Shown here one piece after another: positions 12,981 through 60,009 of a stretch of 64,000 nt of DNA (within the stretch, counting starts at the first letter, position 1; the number at the start of each line of letters is the position of its first letter). Under the pieces are notes generated by a model. The model searched no databases, was not told the origin of the DNA, and worked only from the letters and a program-made list of their open reading frames with translations. The DNA comes from Candidatus Peregrinibacteria bacterium. GTDB taxonomy: Bacteria > Patescibacteriota > Gracilibacteria > UBA1369 > LOWO2-01-FULL-3. The stretch is taken from positions 1-64,000 of the forward strand of contig JAPLYN010000002.1 of assembly GCA_026395515.1 (NCBI GenBank). Reading direction: 5' to 3'. Both the position numbers and the translations under genes were made by a program.

Positions 12981-13859
12981 CTATAATCCCAAAGACTTTC
13001 TGATAGCGTCAGCCTTGCTGGTATCCTCAGTTTTCTTTTGAGATTGGCTCCACTCGTGTTCGAGTTCCATCCATTCGTCAAAATGTTGCTGAGCAAGCTT
13101 CTCGAGCTGAGGTGCATGCTTCTTTGAAAGAGCGGCAAACTTCTGTTTCTCCTCTTCAAAAATGCGAACTAGCTCGTCGATTTGAGCCTGTTTTAGTTTT
13201 GGAATCGATTCAATAATCTTTTTTTTCTCATCTTTAGAAAGAGAAATAGAACCAGCTAATAATCTAATAAAATATTCATCGTCAAACTTCAAATCACTCT
13301 TTGGCGCAGTCACGTTTAATTTCGCTGGAAATTTAGTTCCCAATTGGAAATTTGCTGGAGTAGTATCTTCAGCTGGTGGCATTGGCGGATAACTAGGCAT
13401 TTGACCAGGCATTGCACCCTGTGGTGGCATTCCTGCACCCATTGGCATTTGACCGCCTTGTGGAGGAAAACCAGGCATTCCTTGTGGAGCTGGATATCCT
13501 GGAGGATACGCACCTGGTTGAGGGTAACCTTGTGGAGGCATTCCCTGAGGTGGCATTTGGCCTTGTGGTGGATAATAATAACCCATTGGAGGGTAACCTT
13601 GTTGTTGAGCGTATGGATCAAACATTGGTGGATATCCTGGAGGGTACGCACCTGGTTGTGGATAGCCTTGTGGAGGCATTCCCTGAGGTGGCATCGGAGG
13701 ATAACCAACAGGTGGCATTTGCTGACCCTGCTGACCTTGAGCACCTTGAACACTCTGAGCTCCCGCTTGCGCTGGAGGTGGAGTCATTGGTTTTGGAGGT
13801 TGTGCCTGAGCTGGTTTTTGACCCTGATTTGCGGCCGGATTTGTATTTTTTGGATCCAT
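12981..13859 (-). CDS. Pro/Gln/Gly-rich protein with conserved C-terminal helical module
   Basis: 292 aa. Residues about 1-165 are low complexity, rich in Pro, Gln, Gly, Met and Tyr, with repeats of PPQGMPPQGYPQPGAYPPGY. The C-terminal about 125 residues are charged and helical: KDEKKKIIESIPKLKQAQIDELVRIFEEEKQK. The same spacing of residues appears in the protein at 27311-27820, so this is a shared module. No signal peptide or membrane helix. Function unknown; a scaffold or condensate-like role would be speculation. Confidence 0.7.
   Translation of the reverse strand: MDPKNTNPAANQGQKPAQAQPPKPMTPPPAQAGAQSVQGAQGQQGQQMPPVGYPPMPPQGMPPQGYPQPGAYPPGYPPMFDPYAQQQGYPPMGYYYPPQGQMPPQGMPPQGYPQPGAYPPGYPAPQGMPGFPPQGGQMPMGAGMPPQGAMPGQMPSYPPMPPAEDTTPANFQLGTKFPAKLNVTAPKSDLKFDDEYFIRLLAGSISLSKDEKKKIIESIPKLKQAQIDELVRIFEEEKQKFAALSKKHAPQLEKLAQQHFDEWMELEHEWSQSQKKTEDTSKADAIRKSLGL
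13492..13694 (-). repeat. Two 65-bp direct repeats in the Pro/Gln-rich gene
   Basis: Copies at 13492-13556 and 13630-13694 differ at about 4 of 65 positions and encode the repeated block around GMPPQGYPQPGAYPPGY. This is an internal tandem duplication of coding sequence and could vary in copy number between strains. Confidence 0.8.
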
Positions 13860-51881: not shown

Positions 51882-51989
51882 CACTCCAACATTTCAGTAA
51901 TAACTCCAAGGACATTTTATTGTTGCCCGAGATGGGCGACTGTGCCAACAATGTGTCCTTTGGGAAACTGAGTTGGAGTGTCACAGTCG
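51882..51989 (+). other. Recombinase leader with two interlocking inverted repeats
   Basis: Arm A1 (51882-51925, CACTCCAAC then CAAGGACA and TTGTTG blocks) pairs imperfectly with A2 (51946-51980, CAACAATG, TGTCCTT, GTTGGAGTG). In A's loop, CGACTGTG (51937-51944) pairs perfectly with CACAGTCG (51982-51989) outside A, giving an H-type pseudoknot or two mutually exclusive folds. A T5 run at 51993-51997 follows, so fold B could act as a weak terminator. Likely regulates recombinase expression. Confidence 0.55.
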
Positions 51990-52028
51990 TCCTTTTTGGG
52001 CGTTACTACCTATCAAAACTTAGTTTTC

Positions 52029-54548
52029 ATGAAATACTTTCTCTACTGCCGTAAATCAACAGAAGAAAAGGACCGACAAATCCTATCTCTTGAATCTCAA
52101 AAAGAGGAGGTCAGAAGCAGATTTCCTGATATTCAAATTGTTGAAATGGAAGCAGAGTCAAAAAGTGCTTTCAAACCATACGAACGTCCGATTTTCGCAA
52201 AGATGCTTGAACGAATAAAGAAGGGTGAAGCTCAAGGTATTGTATGCTGGGACCCAAGCCGTCTTTCAAGAAATCCATTGGATGCGGCTATGATCATACA
52301 TTTCCTTGATACCGGAGTACTAAAAGACCTTAAGTTCTGTAACTTTCATTTTGATAATTCTCCAGAAGGAAAGATGATGCTGAATTTTTCATTGTCCCAA
52401 TCTAAGTATTCGTCGGACAAGCTGAGCAAAGATGTAAAACGAGGAATGATAAAAAAATGTAGGAATGGATGGAGACCTAATGTATCACCTATTGGTTATC
52501 TTAATGACCCACGTGGACTGAAAGGTGAAAGACAAATCTTGGTAGATCCAGACCGTTTTGATTTAACTAAGAAGATGTGGACTATGCTGTTATCAGGCAG
52601 ATATTCAGTAAAAGACATTTGGAATATAGCAACGAAAGATTGGCACTTTGTCCCACTACGAGGAAAATCATTGGCTCTATGTACTCTTTACTCAATGTTT
52701 ACTAATCCGTTTTACTATGGAGAATTTGAATGGGATGGCGAATGGCATATTGGGAAACATAAGCCAATGATAGAAAAAGAAGAATTTGATCGGGTCCAAT
52801 TGATTCTTGGTAGAAAAGGTAAGCAAAGACCACAAAAACACAGATTCTCTTTTACAGGTTTAATTAAATGTGGCCACTGCGGTTGCTGTATTACAGCCGA
52901 ACAAAGATTAAAGACTTTGAAGAAAACGAAAGAAGTAAAAGTTTATTCTTACTACAAATGCACTCACCGCTCTGCATCAATCAAGTGTCACGAGCTATCT
53001 GTTTCTCAGGAAGAACTTGAGAAACAGGTTGTTGAATTACTTGAGACCTTAACTATTCTAGAAAACTTGATGAAGGTTACGGTTAAGTATTTGCAAAAAT
53101 ATAATGTGGTTGAGAACGCAGACCGTGGAAAGGTTCAGTCTTCACTACAAGAGGCATATAACGGTTGCACTAAAAGGATTGAGAACTTATTGAACCTTTA
53201 CATCTCCCCTGCTAATTCCGATAAAGGTATTCTTACTGAGGAAGAGTTCAAAAGCCAAAAAATGAGCTTACTTCAAGAGAAGGCGGATATTGAGTCGAAA
53301 ATCAGGGCATGTGAGGAGCGACTGAACACCCATCTAGAGTTAACTGAAAAGACTTTTGAATTTGCTGCCTATGCTAAGTACCGATTCGATCATGGCGATA
53401 TTGATGATAAAAGAGTCATTATGCAGGCTTTAGGTCAGAACTTTTTATTGAAAGACCAGAAACTTACTCTGGAACTAGATAAGTCGTTAATGACTATAAA
53501 AAATGGCATGGAAAAGATAAACTCGCTAGAACCTACGTTCTCACCGACTTTAGAGGCATTAGAAAGCCCTAAAACGGTGATTGTTAAATTGTGGTGCCGA
53601 GGGGCAGAATCGGACTGCCTACACAAGGATTTTCAATCCTCTGCTCTACCAATGAGCTACCCCGGCACGATGAAAGTCGTGAAAACTTACGAAGCCGATT
53701 TTAACGGGGTTTCTCATAAATGGCAATCTTTTATGGTTGTTTTCGAGGAGAATTTGCATTTTCCTCTGTATTTAGCTAAATTTAGACCCATGAATAAGAA
53801 GAAAATTGTAGTAAAACTAGGCACAAACTCAATGACCAAGGACGATGGAACACTTGATCAAGCGCTAATTAAAAAGCTGGTAAAACAGATTGCTGACTTA
53901 AAAGAGAACTTTGACGTGCTGCTAGTGTCATCTGGAGCGATGGGTTGTGGACGCAGCATTATTAAGAAGAAACTGAACTATGACGAAGTCACTACTCGCC
54001 AGGTTTATGCAGTAGTGGGACAAGTAAGATTAATGGAACTTTATGCTAATCTTTTCGGAGAACATGGGCGCGTGGTGGCCCAGATGCTTGCGACAAAAGA
54101 GGACTTCACAAACAGAAGTCATATTCTCAATACAAAGAATTGTATCGATTCCCTATTCCATGAAGAAATTATTCCGGTAATGAATGAAAATGATTTTGTG
54201 TGTATCGAGGAATTAATGTTTACGGATAATGATGAGTTGGCATTGATGGTTTCTAAGATGATTTTCGCAGATATGCTGATTATTTTGAGCAATGTGGATG
54301 GAGTGTATGATTCTGAGAAAAAAGTAATTAAGGAAGTGGCGGCTGACGAAGTGATGCCACTAAGTATTGTTTCCAGCGAGAAATCCTCTTTTGGAAAAGG
54401 TGGAATGCAAAATAAATTTACTGTGGCTCAGCTAGCTGCGAAAAATGGCACAACTGTATTTATTACAAATAGCAAAGAGGAGAATGTTATTACGAGAATT
54501 TGTAATGGCGAAACCGTTGGCACAAAATTTCTTCCATTAAAATCCTAG
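52029..54548 (+). CDS. Large serine recombinase; open frame continues through tRNA-Phe into proB
   Basis: Start ATG 52029 (MKYFLYCRKSTEEKD); a start at 51978 would lie in the leader structure. Resolvase domain with catalytic Ser in CRKST (Ser10) and SRLSRNPL; Recombinase domain (ISPIGYLNDPRG region) and zinc ribbon (CGHCGCC then CTHRSASIKC); then coiled coil. Recombinase-type sequence ends near residue 520 (53590). The same frame then crosses antisense tRNA-Phe (CRGAESDCLHKDFQSS) and continues into the whole of ProB. The element was probably integrated by this enzyme. The fused product is unlikely to be the functional form because proB has its own promoter. Confidence 0.85.
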   Translation: MKYFLYCRKSTEEKDRQILSLESQKEEVRSRFPDIQIVEMEAESKSAFKPYERPIFAKMLERIKKGEAQGIVCWDPSRLSRNPLDAAMIIHFLDTGVLKDLKFCNFHFDNSPEGKMMLNFSLSQSKYSSDKLSKDVKRGMIKKCRNGWRPNVSPIGYLNDPRGLKGERQILVDPDRFDLTKKMWTMLLSGRYSVKDIWNIATKDWHFVPLRGKSLALCTLYSMFTNPFYYGEFEWDGEWHIGKHKPMIEKEEFDRVQLILGRKGKQRPQKHRFSFTGLIKCGHCGCCITAEQRLKTLKKTKEVKVYSYYKCTHRSASIKCHELSVSQEELEKQVVELLETLTILENLMKVTVKYLQKYNVVENADRGKVQSSLQEAYNGCTKRIENLLNLYISPANSDKGILTEEEFKSQKMSLLQEKADIESKIRACEERLNTHLELTEKTFEFAAYAKYRFDHGDIDDKRVIMQALGQNFLLKDQKLTLELDKSLMTIKNGMEKINSLEPTFSPTLEALESPKTVIVKLWCRGAESDCLHKDFQSSALPMSYPGTMKVVKTYEADFNGVSHKWQSFMVVFEENLHFPLYLAKFRPMNKKKIVVKLGTNSMTKDDGTLDQALIKKLVKQIADLKENFDVLLVSSGAMGCGRSIIKKKLNYDEVTTRQVYAVVGQVRLMELYANLFGEHGRVVAQMLATKEDFTNRSHILNTKNCIDSLFHEEIIPVMNENDFVCIEELMFTDNDELALMVSKMIFADMLIILSNVDGVYDSEKKVIKEVAADEVMPLSIVSSEKSSFGKGGMQNKFTVAQLAAKNGTTVFITNSKEENVITRICNGETVGTKFLPLKS
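53592..53666 (-). tRNA. tRNA-Phe (GAA), CCA encoded; integration site
   Basis: 75-nt cloverleaf on the minus strand: acceptor GCCGGGG/CCTCGGC, D arm GCTC/GAGC, anticodon stem GAGGA/TCCTT with loop TTGAAAA (anticodon GAA), T stem GGCAG/CTGCC, discriminator A, CCA encoded. The T loop TCCGATT carries C at position 55, normally U. Its 3' end faces the element. Confidence 0.9.
53754..53782 (+). promoter_or_regulatory. proB promoter, leaderless
   Basis: TTGCAT at 53754-53759, 17 bp, TAAATT at 53777-53782. ATG 53790 is 7 bp beyond the -10, so transcription would start at or next to the start codon. It shows proB is expressed independently of the recombinase. Confidence 0.6.
53790..54548 (+). CDS. 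proB: Glutamate 5-kinase
   Basis: 252 aa, the amino acid kinase domain alone (no PUA domain). Begins MNKKKIVVKLGTNSM, with substrate loops LLVSSGAMGCGR and the phosphate-binding GKGGMQNKF. First enzyme of proline synthesis, phosphorylating glutamate. Start at 53790 is set by the promoter. Followed at 3 bp by proC. The frame is open upstream into the element recombinase. Confidence 0.93.
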   Translation: MNKKKIVVKLGTNSMTKDDGTLDQALIKKLVKQIADLKENFDVLLVSSGAMGCGRSIIKKKLNYDEVTTRQVYAVVGQVRLMELYANLFGEHGRVVAQMLATKEDFTNRSHILNTKNCIDSLFHEEIIPVMNENDFVCIEELMFTDNDELALMVSKMIFADMLIILSNVDGVYDSEKKVIKEVAADEVMPLSIVSSEKSSFGKGGMQNKFTVAQLAAKNGTTVFITNSKEENVITRICNGETVGTKFLPLKS

Positions 54549-56624: not shown

Positions 56625-57719
56625 ATGGTTGATAAACAAAAATTAAAGAAGTTGGCGGACATTATTGCCAACTATTCTATTGCAGTAAAAAAAGGTGAAA
56701 AGATTTTAATTCGTGCTTATGGTTTCGATGGTTTTCCTTTAGTTAAAGAGCTTTATCGCGAATGTATCAAAGCTGGTGCGATTCAAGTGGATGTAAAATT
56801 TGGCCATGATGAATTGAGCAAAATTTTCTTTGATCATGCTAATAAAGAGCAAATGGAATACCTCAGCGACTTGGATAAAAAAGTGGCGGATAGTTATGAT
56901 GCGATGGTACAAATCGTGGCCGATGCCAATCCTTATGAAATGAGCGACGTAGATATTAAAAAAGTTTATGCAGTACAAAAATCTCGCAAAATCATTGGGG
57001 ACATTTTGCATACAAAGCGCTGGTGTCTTTTCTATTATCCGAATGTGGCGTCAGCGATGTTGGCAAAGAAAAGTTTGGAAGAATGGGAGGAATTTGTGTT
57101 CAACACTTGCCTACTAGATTGGAAACAAGTTGAAAAAATGGAGATAAAATTCAAGGAGTTAATGTTGAAAGTGAAGGATGTGAGAATTACTGGAAAGGAA
57201 ACTGATCTTACTTTGTCCATCGCTGGTCAGAAGTGGAAAACTTGCTGTGGAAAGCGCAATTTGCCAGATGGAGAAATTTTCACAGCACCGATAAAGACCT
57301 CGGTGAATGGAGTGATTCGTTACAATGTGCCGACTCATTATCAGTCACAAGATTTTGATTGGGTGAAGTTGTGGTTGAAGGATGGAAAAGTAATAAAAGA
57401 AGAATCAAACAACCAAAAAGCTGTGACAGAAATTCTAGATACTGATGCTGGATCTCGCTATTATGGAGAGTTTGCTTTTGGTTTGAATGACATGATTAAG
57501 CAAGGCACACGCCAAATTTTATTCGATGAGAAAATGGGAAAAAGTCTGCATATGGCTCTAGGACGATGCTACGAAGAATGTCCAAACGGCAATGATTCCA
57601 GCGTGCATTGGGATTTAATTTATCGTTTTGCTTGGGCCGAAGCAGAAATATATTTCGACGGCAAAAAAGTATATTCGAAAAATAAATGGATAGATAAAAA
57701 GTTTGGTTTTTTGAACTAA
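56625..57719 (+). CDS. M29 family metallo-aminopeptidase
   Basis: 364 aa, full length for M29 (AmpS/PepS, T family). Begins KLKKLADIIANYSIAVKKGEKILI; metal-ligand region FTAPIKTSVNGVIRYN, EILDTDAGSRYYGEFAFGLN, and C-terminal HMALGRCYEECPNGNDSSVHWDLI holding His and Asp ligands. Dizinc or dicobalt exopeptidase in the cytosol. Stands alone, with only a short gap after proA. Confidence 0.92.
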   Translation: MVDKQKLKKLADIIANYSIAVKKGEKILIRAYGFDGFPLVKELYRECIKAGAIQVDVKFGHDELSKIFFDHANKEQMEYLSDLDKKVADSYDAMVQIVADANPYEMSDVDIKKVYAVQKSRKIIGDILHTKRWCLFYYPNVASAMLAKKSLEEWEEFVFNTCLLDWKQVEKMEIKFKELMLKVKDVRITGKETDLTLSIAGQKWKTCCGKRNLPDGEIFTAPIKTSVNGVIRYNVPTHYQSQDFDWVKLWLKDGKVIKEESNNQKAVTEILDTDAGSRYYGEFAFGLNDMIKQGTRQILFDEKMGKSLHMALGRCYEECPNGNDSSVHWDLIYRFAWAEAEIYFDGKKVYSKNKWIDKKFGFLN

Positions 57720-57722
57720 GAC

Positions 57723-58187
57723 TTAGGCCTGCTTGGATTCAAGCGCAGAGATGCGTTCATTCAAGTCCTGGATTTGCCCATCAAATTTTACGTCTCTATA
57801 GTTTGTTATTTCAACAGTTCTATTCAATTTATTCAGATCAGCCTTAACGTCTGCAAGATCAAGGCATATTTTATTTAAGCGCAATTCAATGTTTGTCACT
57901 CGCTCTTCCAGCTTAGAAATTCTATCGTCAAACCAATTCTGTAAATGCAAAAAACCTATACTTGTTGCGGCGGCTAAATCATCGAAATTTTCCTCCATTT
58001 TCTCAAATCGTTGATCCATCTTTTCAAATCTTCTATCTATTGCATAGAATCTTAGATCGATTTGATCAAATCTTTCCTCCATCTTTTCGAATCTTCTATC
58101 TACCGATTCGAATCCTTGTTTCATCTGGACCGCCAGATTCTCTATTGATTTTGCTAACGTTGTAATTGTCATCGTTGTCTTTTTCAT
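57723..58187 (-). CDS. Coiled-coil protein with RFE repeats
   Basis: 154 aa from ATG 58187 (MKKTTMTITTLAKSIENLA). Repeats of RRFEKMEERFDQIDLRFYA and RRFEKMDQRFEKMEE give a seven-residue coiled coil (about 25-75); further coiled coil extends to the C-terminus (ERVTNIELRLNKICLDLADV). No membrane helix. Similar RFE/MDxRF proteins are common in Patescibacteria (recollection); function unknown. Stop lies 3 bp from the stop of the converging M29 gene. Confidence 0.72.
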   Translation of the reverse strand: MKKTTMTITTLAKSIENLAVQMKQGFESVDRRFEKMEERFDQIDLRFYAIDRRFEKMDQRFEKMEENFDDLAAATSIGFLHLQNWFDDRISKLEERVTNIELRLNKICLDLADVKADLNKLNRTVEITNYRDVKFDGQIQDLNERISALESKQA

Positions 58188-58434
58188 ATGTTGTTGGGTT
58201 TTGAATAATAAATTGTTTTTTATAATTTGCAAATATTTTAGCCGTCAAAGTTAAAATATTCTTAAATTAATTCTAAATTTTTTCTAAATTATTTAGCGTG
58301 AAGCAATACGAGACTTGACAATTTTTAAAAATCAGTACGCAGTAAATCAAACTTACCATTGTCATATCAAGAAGTTTCCAATAAACTCCCTGTTCGTGAA
58401 GGTCTTGTAACTCCCCTCCAAAGCAATTTGAGAG

Positions 58435-58451
58435 CGGTCGAAGTTCGACCG
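58435..58451. repeat. Perfect 17-bp palindrome
   Basis: CGGTCGAA-G-TTCGACCG, 8-1-8 perfect. Lies just before the GC-rich patch in a gene-poor stretch (58188-58551) that otherwise shows AT-rich sequence and a TTGACA (58460-58465) without a clear -10. Candidate protein-binding or recombination site. Confidence 0.75.
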
Positions 58452-58551
58452 TTCACAATTTGACAACAAGGGTAGTAACAGATTTTCACGTTACAGCAAA
58501 TAACAACACCTCGAACAACTCGAGGTTTCACCGACAGGAGATAGATTCAGA

Positions 58552-58842
58552 ATGAGAATTTCACAGTCCCAGATGGCCAAAGGCCTCGAGCGGATCACCT
58601 GCACCGAATGTGACCGTCCGCACAAGCTCCAACGCAAGGATCTCGACGACCACCTGCGCTCTATCCAGGGCAAGGGTGATCGCAATCCGCGTCAACTGAG
58701 TCCGTCCAGCAGCGTGCCTGCAAACCGTGGCACGCGCATCGCGACTGAGCAGGAGACCCGCGTCCGCAACATGCGCCGCGCATGGAACCACGTGCCGGCA
58801 GATCACATGCCGGAAGAGATCCGTCAGGCCCTCGGTCTCTAG
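58552..58842 (+). CDS. Mini zinc-finger-like protein 1
   Basis: 96 aa. Motif TCTECDRPHKLQRKDLDDHL gives Cys17, Cys20, His24 and His34, i.e. C-x2-C-x3-H-x9-H, a possible zinc knuckle. The rest is basic and low in hydrophobics, with VPADHMPEEIRQALGL at the end. AGGAG lies 11 bp before the ATG, and a stable hairpin (ACCTCGA/TCGAGGT, 58508-58526) precedes it. GC-rich codons unlike all neighbours. No family recognised. Confidence 0.65.
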   Translation: MRISQSQMAKGLERITCTECDRPHKLQRKDLDDHLRSIQGKGDRNPRQLSPSSSVPANRGTRIATEQETRVRNMRRAWNHVPADHMPEEIRQALGL

Positions 58843-58859
58843 GACAAGTTCATCAACCC

Positions 58860-58877
58860 AAGGCGCTGCGGCGCCTT
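58860..58877 (+). repeat. Hairpin between the two mini zinc-finger genes
   Basis: AAGGCGC (58860-58866) pairs perfectly with GCGCCTT (58871-58877), tetraloop TGCG, followed by TCAC. Too few T for a strong terminator; perhaps an mRNA stability or partial termination element. Confidence 0.7.
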
Positions 58878-58898
58878 TCACTGAGGAGAAGAAGTCGA

Positions 58899-59054
58899 AT
58901 GTCGAAGAACAAGGACCCCCGTGGCAAGAAGAATGCCGGTACCGGCCTCGTCACCTGCACCGAATGCACGCCTTACCACAAGGTGTTGAAGTCGGCGTTT
59001 CCCGCTCACCTGGATCAGGTGCGGCGGGACATGAAGCTCCGTCTCCGCCGCTAG
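58899..59054 (+). CDS. Mini zinc-finger-like protein 2
   Basis: 51 aa. LVTCTECTPYHKVLKSAFP and then AHL give Cys20, Cys23, His27 and His37: exactly the same C-x2-C-x3-H-x9-H spacing as the gene before it, in the context GLxx(V/I)TCTECxxxHK. The two are therefore paralogues by tandem duplication. Basic N-terminus MSKNKDPRGKKN. GAGGAG lies 11 bp before the ATG. GC-rich; too short to be certain, but the shared motif and SD support it. Confidence 0.65.
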   Translation: MSKNKDPRGKKNAGTGLVTCTECTPYHKVLKSAFPAHLDQVRRDMKLRLRR

Positions 59055-59132
59055 GCAGCCTGCACAATCAATCCGCATGGCGATGACCCCTTCACTGGGC
59101 GAGCTCCGCGGAAGGTGACCAAGAACTCGGTG

Positions 59133-59233
59133 GGGTAGTAATGTGAATAGATTTTCGAGAAGGATTGCTGCGACGTGGCGAAAGCCACAGTCAAAGCGCC
59201 GTCCCGGACCTCGAACCTCTATAATTACTACCC
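59133..59233 (+). ncRNA. 101-nt foldable unit with perfect 10-bp terminal inverted repeats
   Basis: GGGTAGTAAT (59133-59142) pairs with ATTACTACCC (59224-59233). Inside, TAGA..TTCGAG pairs with CTCGAA..TCTA, and GAC-GTGGC-GAAA-GCCAC-A-GTC forms an apical hairpin with a GNRA tetraloop. The whole unit folds as one long structured element. It may be a structured RNA or the end of a mobile unit; no reading frame or known RNA family was recognised. Confidence 0.5.
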
Positions 59234-59244
59234 TGCCAGTTCTT

Positions 59245-60009
59245 TCAAGGTGTGATAAAAAGCACTACCGGACAATGATCAGAGCCCATGACTTCAGGCA
59301 AATGATAACAATCTTTCACCATGCTGCGAGCGTTTTTTGAGCAGAAAAAATAATCAATTCTCCAGCCCACATTTCTATATCTCGCACCACCGCGCATACT
59401 CCACCAAGTGTAACACTCTGGAGTTTTGTTGAATTCGCGGAAACAATCAATGAATCCATGGTCTACTAATTTATCTAGCCATCGGCGTTCAATTGGCAGA
59501 AAACCTGAAATCATTTCATTTTCTTTTGGACGAGCAAGATCGATTTCTTTGTGCGCCGTATTGTAATCTCCAGTAATAAAAAGTTTCTTCCCTTCCTTCA
59601 CGCATTTATCAAAATACTTCAAAGCTTCATCGTAGAAAGCCATTTTATAATCCAATCTTTCCTGATCTCTCTGACCATTAGGAAAATAAATATTTATAAA
59701 AACAAAATCTCCATAATCGGCAATTTGTGTGCGCCCTTCTGAATCAAATTTCTCCACACCAAAACCATTCAAAATCTCATAAGGCTGAACTTTCGTATAA
59801 ATAGCTGTGCCAGAATATCCCTTCCTTTGAGCTGGATTAAAATAGGCGTGATAATGATCGGGAGCCAAAAGTTCCTTGCTGAATTGGTGCTCGTGTCCCT
59901 TAATCTCCTGCAGCCCAATAACGTCTGGCTTCTCTTTGTGCAGCCATTTTATAAAGCCTTTTTTTTCGGCAGCTCGAAGTCCGTTTACGTTCCAAGAAAT
60001 TAATTTCAT
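59245..60009 (-). CDS. xth: Exodeoxyribonuclease III / AP endonuclease
   Basis: 254 aa EEP-family nuclease. Begins MKLISWNVNGLRAAEKKGF; motifs PDVIGLQEIKG, ITGDYNTAHKEIDLA, RIDYFFCS and the catalytic GSDHCPVVL. Cuts abasic DNA and trims 3' ends in base-excision repair; could work with PolX and LigA, also in this window. Its stop is 11 bp from the 101-nt foldable unit. Confidence 0.94.
   Translation of the reverse strand: MKLISWNVNGLRAAEKKGFIKWLHKEKPDVIGLQEIKGHEHQFSKELLAPDHYHAYFNPAQRKGYSGTAIYTKVQPYEILNGFGVEKFDSEGRTQIADYGDFVFINIYFPNGQRDQERLDYKMAFYDEALKYFDKCVKEGKKLFITGDYNTAHKEIDLARPKENEMISGFLPIERRWLDKLVDHGFIDCFREFNKTPECYTWWSMRGGARYRNVGWRIDYFFCSKNARSMVKDCYHLPEVMGSDHCPVVLFITP

Follow-up and report, generated by a model that had tools for sequence, protein, structure and literature searches.

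A GC-rich element at about 58390-59245 of the window (the whole 64-kb stretch of DNA that was analysed) places two very fast-changing genes between nearly unchanging RNA ends at one fixed site, an undescribed arrangement. The element looks like a small RNA-protein system. In the preferred reading, which is held tentatively, it is a small transcription unit with structured ends, and its paralogous mini zinc fingers are predicted to bind structured RNA. At the amino acid level, the mini proteins change about 30 times faster than the neighbouring enzyme, within a nearly frozen RNA frame. This contrast poses a testable question, namely whether the mini fingers read the very RNA on which they are encoded or whether that RNA acts as a docking site for genes that can be exchanged.

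Genomic site and distribution

The genome carrying the window (G000, about 1.3 Mb in six contigs) was placed with Candidatus Peribacteria, which are tiny, symbiont-like bacteria. The element is present there as a single copy, downstream of a gene at 56625-57719 that presumably encodes an M29 aminopeptidase. It is flanked on one side by what we take to be a coiled-coil gene (57723-58232, minus strand) and on the other by the presumed exoIII (59245-60009, minus strand), all three names coming from reading the protein sequences. When 60 related genomes were searched at the DNA level, the locus turned up in two further species of the genus, a close relative of G000 represented by the MAG contig CALRGJ010000006.1 (G002) and a third species (G003). 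The order was the same in all three species: 5' hairpin, ORF1, GC-rich inter-ORF hairpin, ORF2, kink-turn-like hairpin, 3' hairpin and exoIII. Since these two other assemblies carry orthologous copies with both ORFs, misassembly, which the initial annotation had considered, was excluded, and the same copies at the same locus refute contamination. The coiled-coil gene, which shows heptad-like repeats, has a longer version in G002 and could not be recognised in G003.

In a search of 84,980 species genomes, close protein relatives were found on the G002 contig only. In 380 genomes of the phylum, the 3' domain, searched with a covariance model, and the proteins, searched with a profile, gave nothing convincing beyond the three copies; three further protein hits (E 0.016-0.036) were treated as noise. 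With laxer filters, the covariance model found nothing convincing outside the three copies in the 30 genomes of the family. Among the genomes searched, the element is restricted to one genus. Another genome of this genus, G001, retains just the 5' hairpin core and the TTACTACCCT end. Its spacer of about 290 nt was considered as a short version of the RNA and rejected, the middle being a multi-copy palindromic MITE, and G001 is therefore regarded as a decayed remnant. This MITE-like repeat (about 160 bp, CGTTACGAACTTTTAC..., L014:205-368 in G001) is multi-copy and is also found in about ten further genera of the order. No insert separates the M29 gene from exoIII in G011. At the same site G010, from another genus, carries an insert that is likewise GC-rich and well folded but unrelated. 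The G010 insert (L019:1287-1880, minus strand, about 560 bp) shows a promoter of the TTGACA type, a tiny ORF preceded by a Shine-Dalgarno sequence and a terminator-like hairpin, and no sequence match to it was found in the rest of the order.

As the initial annotation had stated, the patch is the most GC-rich part of the window: its top 500-bp GC is 0.62, which exceeds the average for the remaining window (0.375, sd 0.028) by almost nine standard deviations. The next-highest value is 0.524 at 13341. This second peak corresponds to a repetitive Pro/Gly/Gln-rich protein (12981-13859, minus strand) and is no foreign patch. Elsewhere in the window, a single open frame at 51978-54548 starts as a serine-recombinase-like protein, passes through an antisense tRNA (53595-53666) and continues as a glutamate-5-kinase-like protein; apparently, an integrase was inserted at the tRNA upstream of proB.

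Structured ends and coding middle

The features of the element are as follows.

58315-58320, plus strand: possible -35 box TTGACA; TTGAC is kept in G002 and the -10 is weak; tentative, since the promoter scan does not call it
58390-58496, plus strand: 5' RNA domain, one long imperfect hairpin of about 107 nt, CUGU.CGUGAAGGUCU...AGAUUUUCACG..ACAG, with the same fold in G000, G002 and G003
58469-58478, plus strand: AGGGTAGTAA copy b, within the 5' domain, predicted to pair either with the nearby ACTCCCC or with copy d
58510-58526, plus strand: small leader hairpin CCTCGAACAACTCGAGG; G002 and G003 bear a different hairpin there
58536-58540, plus strand: Shine-Dalgarno AGGAG of ORF1, in a CAGGAG context common to all three species
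58552-58842, plus strand: ORF1, 96 aa, putative zinc knuckle CTEC-DRP-H-x9-H
58860-58877, plus strand: inter-ORF hairpin AAGGCGC-TGC-GGCGCCTT; G002 and G003 have a GGCGC..GCGCC hairpin at the corresponding position
58883-58888, plus strand: Shine-Dalgarno GAGGAG of ORF2, read from the sequence
58899-59054, plus strand: ORF2, 51 aa, putative zinc knuckle CTEC-TPY-H-x9-H, paralogue of ORF1
59072-59112, plus strand: kink-turn-like hairpin UCCGC..GGC-GAU-GAC-CCC..GGG-C-GA-GCY..GCGGA, recognised by eye from its G.A/A.G pattern
59124-59241, plus strand: 3' RNA domain, hairpin of about 110 nt with tip GUGGC-GAAA-GCCAC, closed by GGGTAGTAAT/ATTACTACCC, from folding and comparison
59133-59142, plus strand: GGGTAGTAAT copy c, 5' arm of the 3' terminal hairpin
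59225-59234, plus strand as TTACTACCCT (= AGGGTAGTAA on the minus strand): copy d, predicted to pair with c or b
59240-59245, plus strand: TTCTTT tail that follows the 3' hairpin and adjoins the stop codon of exoIII; may be an intrinsic terminator

Judged from sequence comparison, RNA structure is conserved at both ends of the element. The structured domains make up its outer 280 nt or so and change far less than the ORFs: between G000 and G002, 86 nt are identical in the 5' domain, starting at 58395, and a 121-nt run is without change in the 3' domain. Against dinucleotide shuffles, folding gave z -5.6 for the whole element and z -4.6 for 59050-59240. The three-species comparison showed a compensatory change from G-C to A-U in the 5' domain and two compensatory pairs at the tip of the 3' hairpin (A-U to G-C and G-C to A-U), to which the core hairpin kept in G001 adds one more, seen by inspection. 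In the alignment with G003, several base pairs of the 3' hairpin cannot form, although G003 itself folds into a similar hairpin. This covariation, with three compensatory pairs and a fourth in the G001 core, is thin because there are only three full copies. The unchanged 86-nt and 121-nt runs, set against an exoIII dS of 0.59, are the stronger evidence. The terminator scan misses the TTCTTT-tailed hairpin because the hairpin is too long.

The initial annotation had placed the patch at 58469-59234, framed by AGGGTAGTAA repeats. The patch and its repeats are real, but the boundaries were too narrow, and the frame proper, two structured RNA domains, had been missed. Within the patch, GGGTAGTAA occurs three times versus 0.2 expected (1 of 100 shuffles reaches 3), all three sites are retained in G002 and G003, and none was found elsewhere in the 64-kb window. 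The first GGGTAGTAA is part of the 5' domain. Since its predicted duplex energies are -9.6 kcal/mol for a:b (local ACTCCCC) and -15.3 kcal/mol for b:d (distal TTACTACCC), alternative pairing, local or distal, would be possible.

The kink-turn pattern, a 3-nt bulge with G.A and A.G pairs between two helices, was found at the sequence level in all three species with the consensus GGC-GAU-GA-C-CCC / GGG-C-GA-GCY, and a GU to GC change is kept in G003. A kink-turn is able to fold without L7Ae; L7Ae itself was dropped as a candidate partner, as no gene of its family was found in the genome. The same hairpin pattern matched four viral contigs, while a scrambled control pattern matched none. These matches are a lead only, because about two chance hits are expected in the viral collection by our own estimate. 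In L102 (6600-7200), in L105 (mirror and near-identical) and in L103 (1760-2285), long, apparently noncoding stretches hold the same kink-turn-like hairpin with extra stem pairing, and no Rfam family was recognised in them; the L103 stretch adjoins a tyrosine-recombinase-like gene. Patterns of the 5' domain had no match in the viral collection. Exact 19-mers shared with viral L018, L106 and L107, inside ordinary coding genes, and a 17-residue match to L002 were dismissed as chance.

The two related adjacent genes of the initial annotation stood up to analysis. Both have AGGAG/GAGGAG sites about 10-11 nt 5' of their starts, and the shared C-x2-C-x3-H-x9-H motif occurs in exactly 2 of 558 open stretches of at least 40 codons in six frames across the whole window, namely ORF1 and ORF2. 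The two Cys and the last His are present in all six proteins (two ORFs, three species) and the middle His in five; in G003 ORF1 there is Phe at this position with a His beside it, the only ligand loss seen among the homologues. Third codon positions are more variable than the others in ORF1 (p = 0.0008) and in ORF2 (p = 0.036), so both look translated, with a weaker case for ORF2. In these sequence comparisons, protein-level selection is shown for ORF1, and support is weaker for ORF2. The C-terminal helices of ORF1 (RNMR..HVPA.HMP.EIR) are conserved in G002. AlphaFold2, run with two-sequence alignments and of modest confidence, predicted a beta-beta-alpha core for ORF1 (pLDDT 60) and ORF2 (pLDDT 76). 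The motif would be a zinc-binding site, and the mini proteins are probably zinc knuckles that bind RNA. 'Mini zinc-finger system', as the cassette had been described, is fair for the ORFs and omits the RNA, its most constrained part.

Between G000 and G002, the ORFs share 48-65% of their DNA sequence. ORF1 keeps 59% amino acid identity (dN 0.36, dS 1.0, dN/dS about 0.36) and ORF2 40% (dN 0.71, dS 2.2, dN/dS about 0.33), the ORF dS values being near saturation at this divergence, while exoIII keeps 98% (dN 0.012, dS 0.59). GC3 in G000 reaches 0.73 in ORF1 and 0.63 in the longer frame containing ORF2; the orthologues in G002 and G003 have 0.75-0.84, and ten neighbouring genes 0.24-0.42. RNA structure within the ORFs does not explain their GC-richness, because folding was no stronger than in synonymous shuffles (z +0.1 to -1.6). 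Therefore, the cargo is either exchanged for sequence from a GC-rich pool or kept GC-rich by some selection.

Weighing of the explanations

In the preferred reading, one transcript of about 850-900 nt would be made from a site that is fixed, in one Peribacteria genus, between the gene for the M29 aminopeptidase and exoIII. The ends of this RNA fold into two long conserved hairpin domains, the second including the kink-turn-like hairpin, and its middle encodes two paralogous mini proteins with a putative zinc site in a predicted beta-beta-alpha core. The proteins may recognise structured RNA, the folded ends of the transcript that encodes them being the most likely target; the outcome would be autoregulation or a small RNP. 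The rapid divergence of the ORFs would suggest an arms-race or a selfish or accessory role rather than housekeeping. Cassette exchange is nearly as likely and compatible with the preferred reading, although still somewhat doubtful in its own right. Here a resident RNA dock would hold a foreign, phage-like, GC-rich two-gene cargo, swapped by recombination at the conserved ends, within which GGGTAGTAA direct repeats stand at 58470 and 59133. The G000/G002 identical runs end just past copy b and resume exactly at copy c, the ORF dS exceeds that of exoIII, and the high GC3 of the ORFs recurs in all three species unexplained by folding. At the same place, G001 has no cargo, G011 no insert and G010 a different GC-rich insert. 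However, the kink-turn-like hairpin between the repeats is also conserved, which speaks against the simple version, and the searches found no integrase or transposase beside the element, no second copy and no donor. A new kind of minimal bacterial RNP element, with nearly invariant RNA ends, one dock, swappable cargo and fast-evolving mini fingers packaging or regulating their own RNA, is unlikely.

Somewhat less probable still is an ordinary operon of small proteins that control their own expression, bounded by a structured leader at the 5' end and by a terminator; the proteins would be DNA-binding regulators recognising GGGTAGTAA. Retention of the three sites in all copies, the small zinc-finger-like proteins and the terminator-like 3' hairpin with its TTCTTT tail are consistent with it, but conservation extends along entire paired stems with compensatory changes, which DNA sites do not need, and the window holds no further GGGTAGTAA. 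It is very unlikely that the patch represents chiefly a large ornate noncoding RNA similar to GOLLD, ROOL or OLE, with the ORFs as passengers or linker. The strong overall fold and the kink-turn-like hairpin, also found in the viral noncoding stretches, would suit such an RNA; the ORFs, on the other hand, are under coding selection and not extra-structured, no large RNA matched in Rfam at E up to 5, and chance alone could account for part of the viral hits.

Comparison with known families and systems

As had been claimed for the ORFs, no recognised family was found: Rfam, Pfam, NCBIfam, PHROG and PADLOC gave no match above cut-off for the element or its ORFs. Rfam returned three chance-level matches on the patch (E 0.4-4.7, searched up to 5), with similar results for the relatives and the whole window. 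In the literature searched, no paper combined Peribacteria with structured RNA. A transposon or MITE was rejected, as the element is a single copy in G000 and its ORFs have no transposase family match above cut-off, and so were a self-splicing group I/II intron (no Rfam intron match), a type III toxin-antitoxin (no tandem repeat array in 58200-59400 and no PADLOC match) and a phage or plasmid origin (no credible DNA or protein match). The element is not a misfiled copy of tmRNA or RNase P RNA, good versions of both being present elsewhere in the genome.

For the proteins, the best PDB match of the profile by hmmsearch was the Sgf11 zinc finger 2lo2 (E 2.8e-4), with 3m99 at E 0.0015. The C-x2-C knuckle and the helix ...L..H are shared with this C-x2-C..H-x3-C finger, but the mini proteins lack the last Cys (0 of 6) and have an extra His after the knuckle. 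Classical C2H2 fingers (C-x2-C-x12-H-x3-5-H) do not fit, as the His follows C-x2-C after 13 residues with no second His 3-5 later, and Pfam zf-C2HC_2 matched the ORF proteins at E 1.2 only. The H-x9-H geometry recalls the CHHC fingers (CPX4HX9HX3C) of U11-48K, GTSF1 and TRM13, which bind structured RNA and are reported from eukaryotes only (PMC9539491). The spacing is shared, as is the beta-beta-alpha finger of about 40 aa predicted for the mini proteins. The top Foldseek match of the ORF2 fold was 2vy4 (U11-48K CHHC), which is insignificant at E 4.2 (VIA Z 3.2, rmsd 3.2, 36 residues). CHHC fingers read C-x5-H-x9-H-x3-C, whereas the mini proteins have C-x2-C-x3-H-x9-H, with one finger per protein and without Cys at either the sixth position ahead of the first His or the fourth position past the second. 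Since they fail the CHHC motif, the likeness is a functional lead and not membership.

For the RNA, the element shares with GOLLD, ROOL and OLE a length of hundreds of nucleotides, an elaborate conserved fold, a kink-turn (OLE) and a GOLLD-like size (PMC12286853). It differs from them in being chromosomal, not tRNA-linked and equipped with two translated-looking ORFs, and it matched neither their covariance models nor that of any other Rfam family. With bacterial operons autoregulated through structured leaders, it has in common a long conserved leader hairpin 5' of a small protein gene, but it adds a larger conserved 3' domain, and its ORFs change far faster than its RNA.
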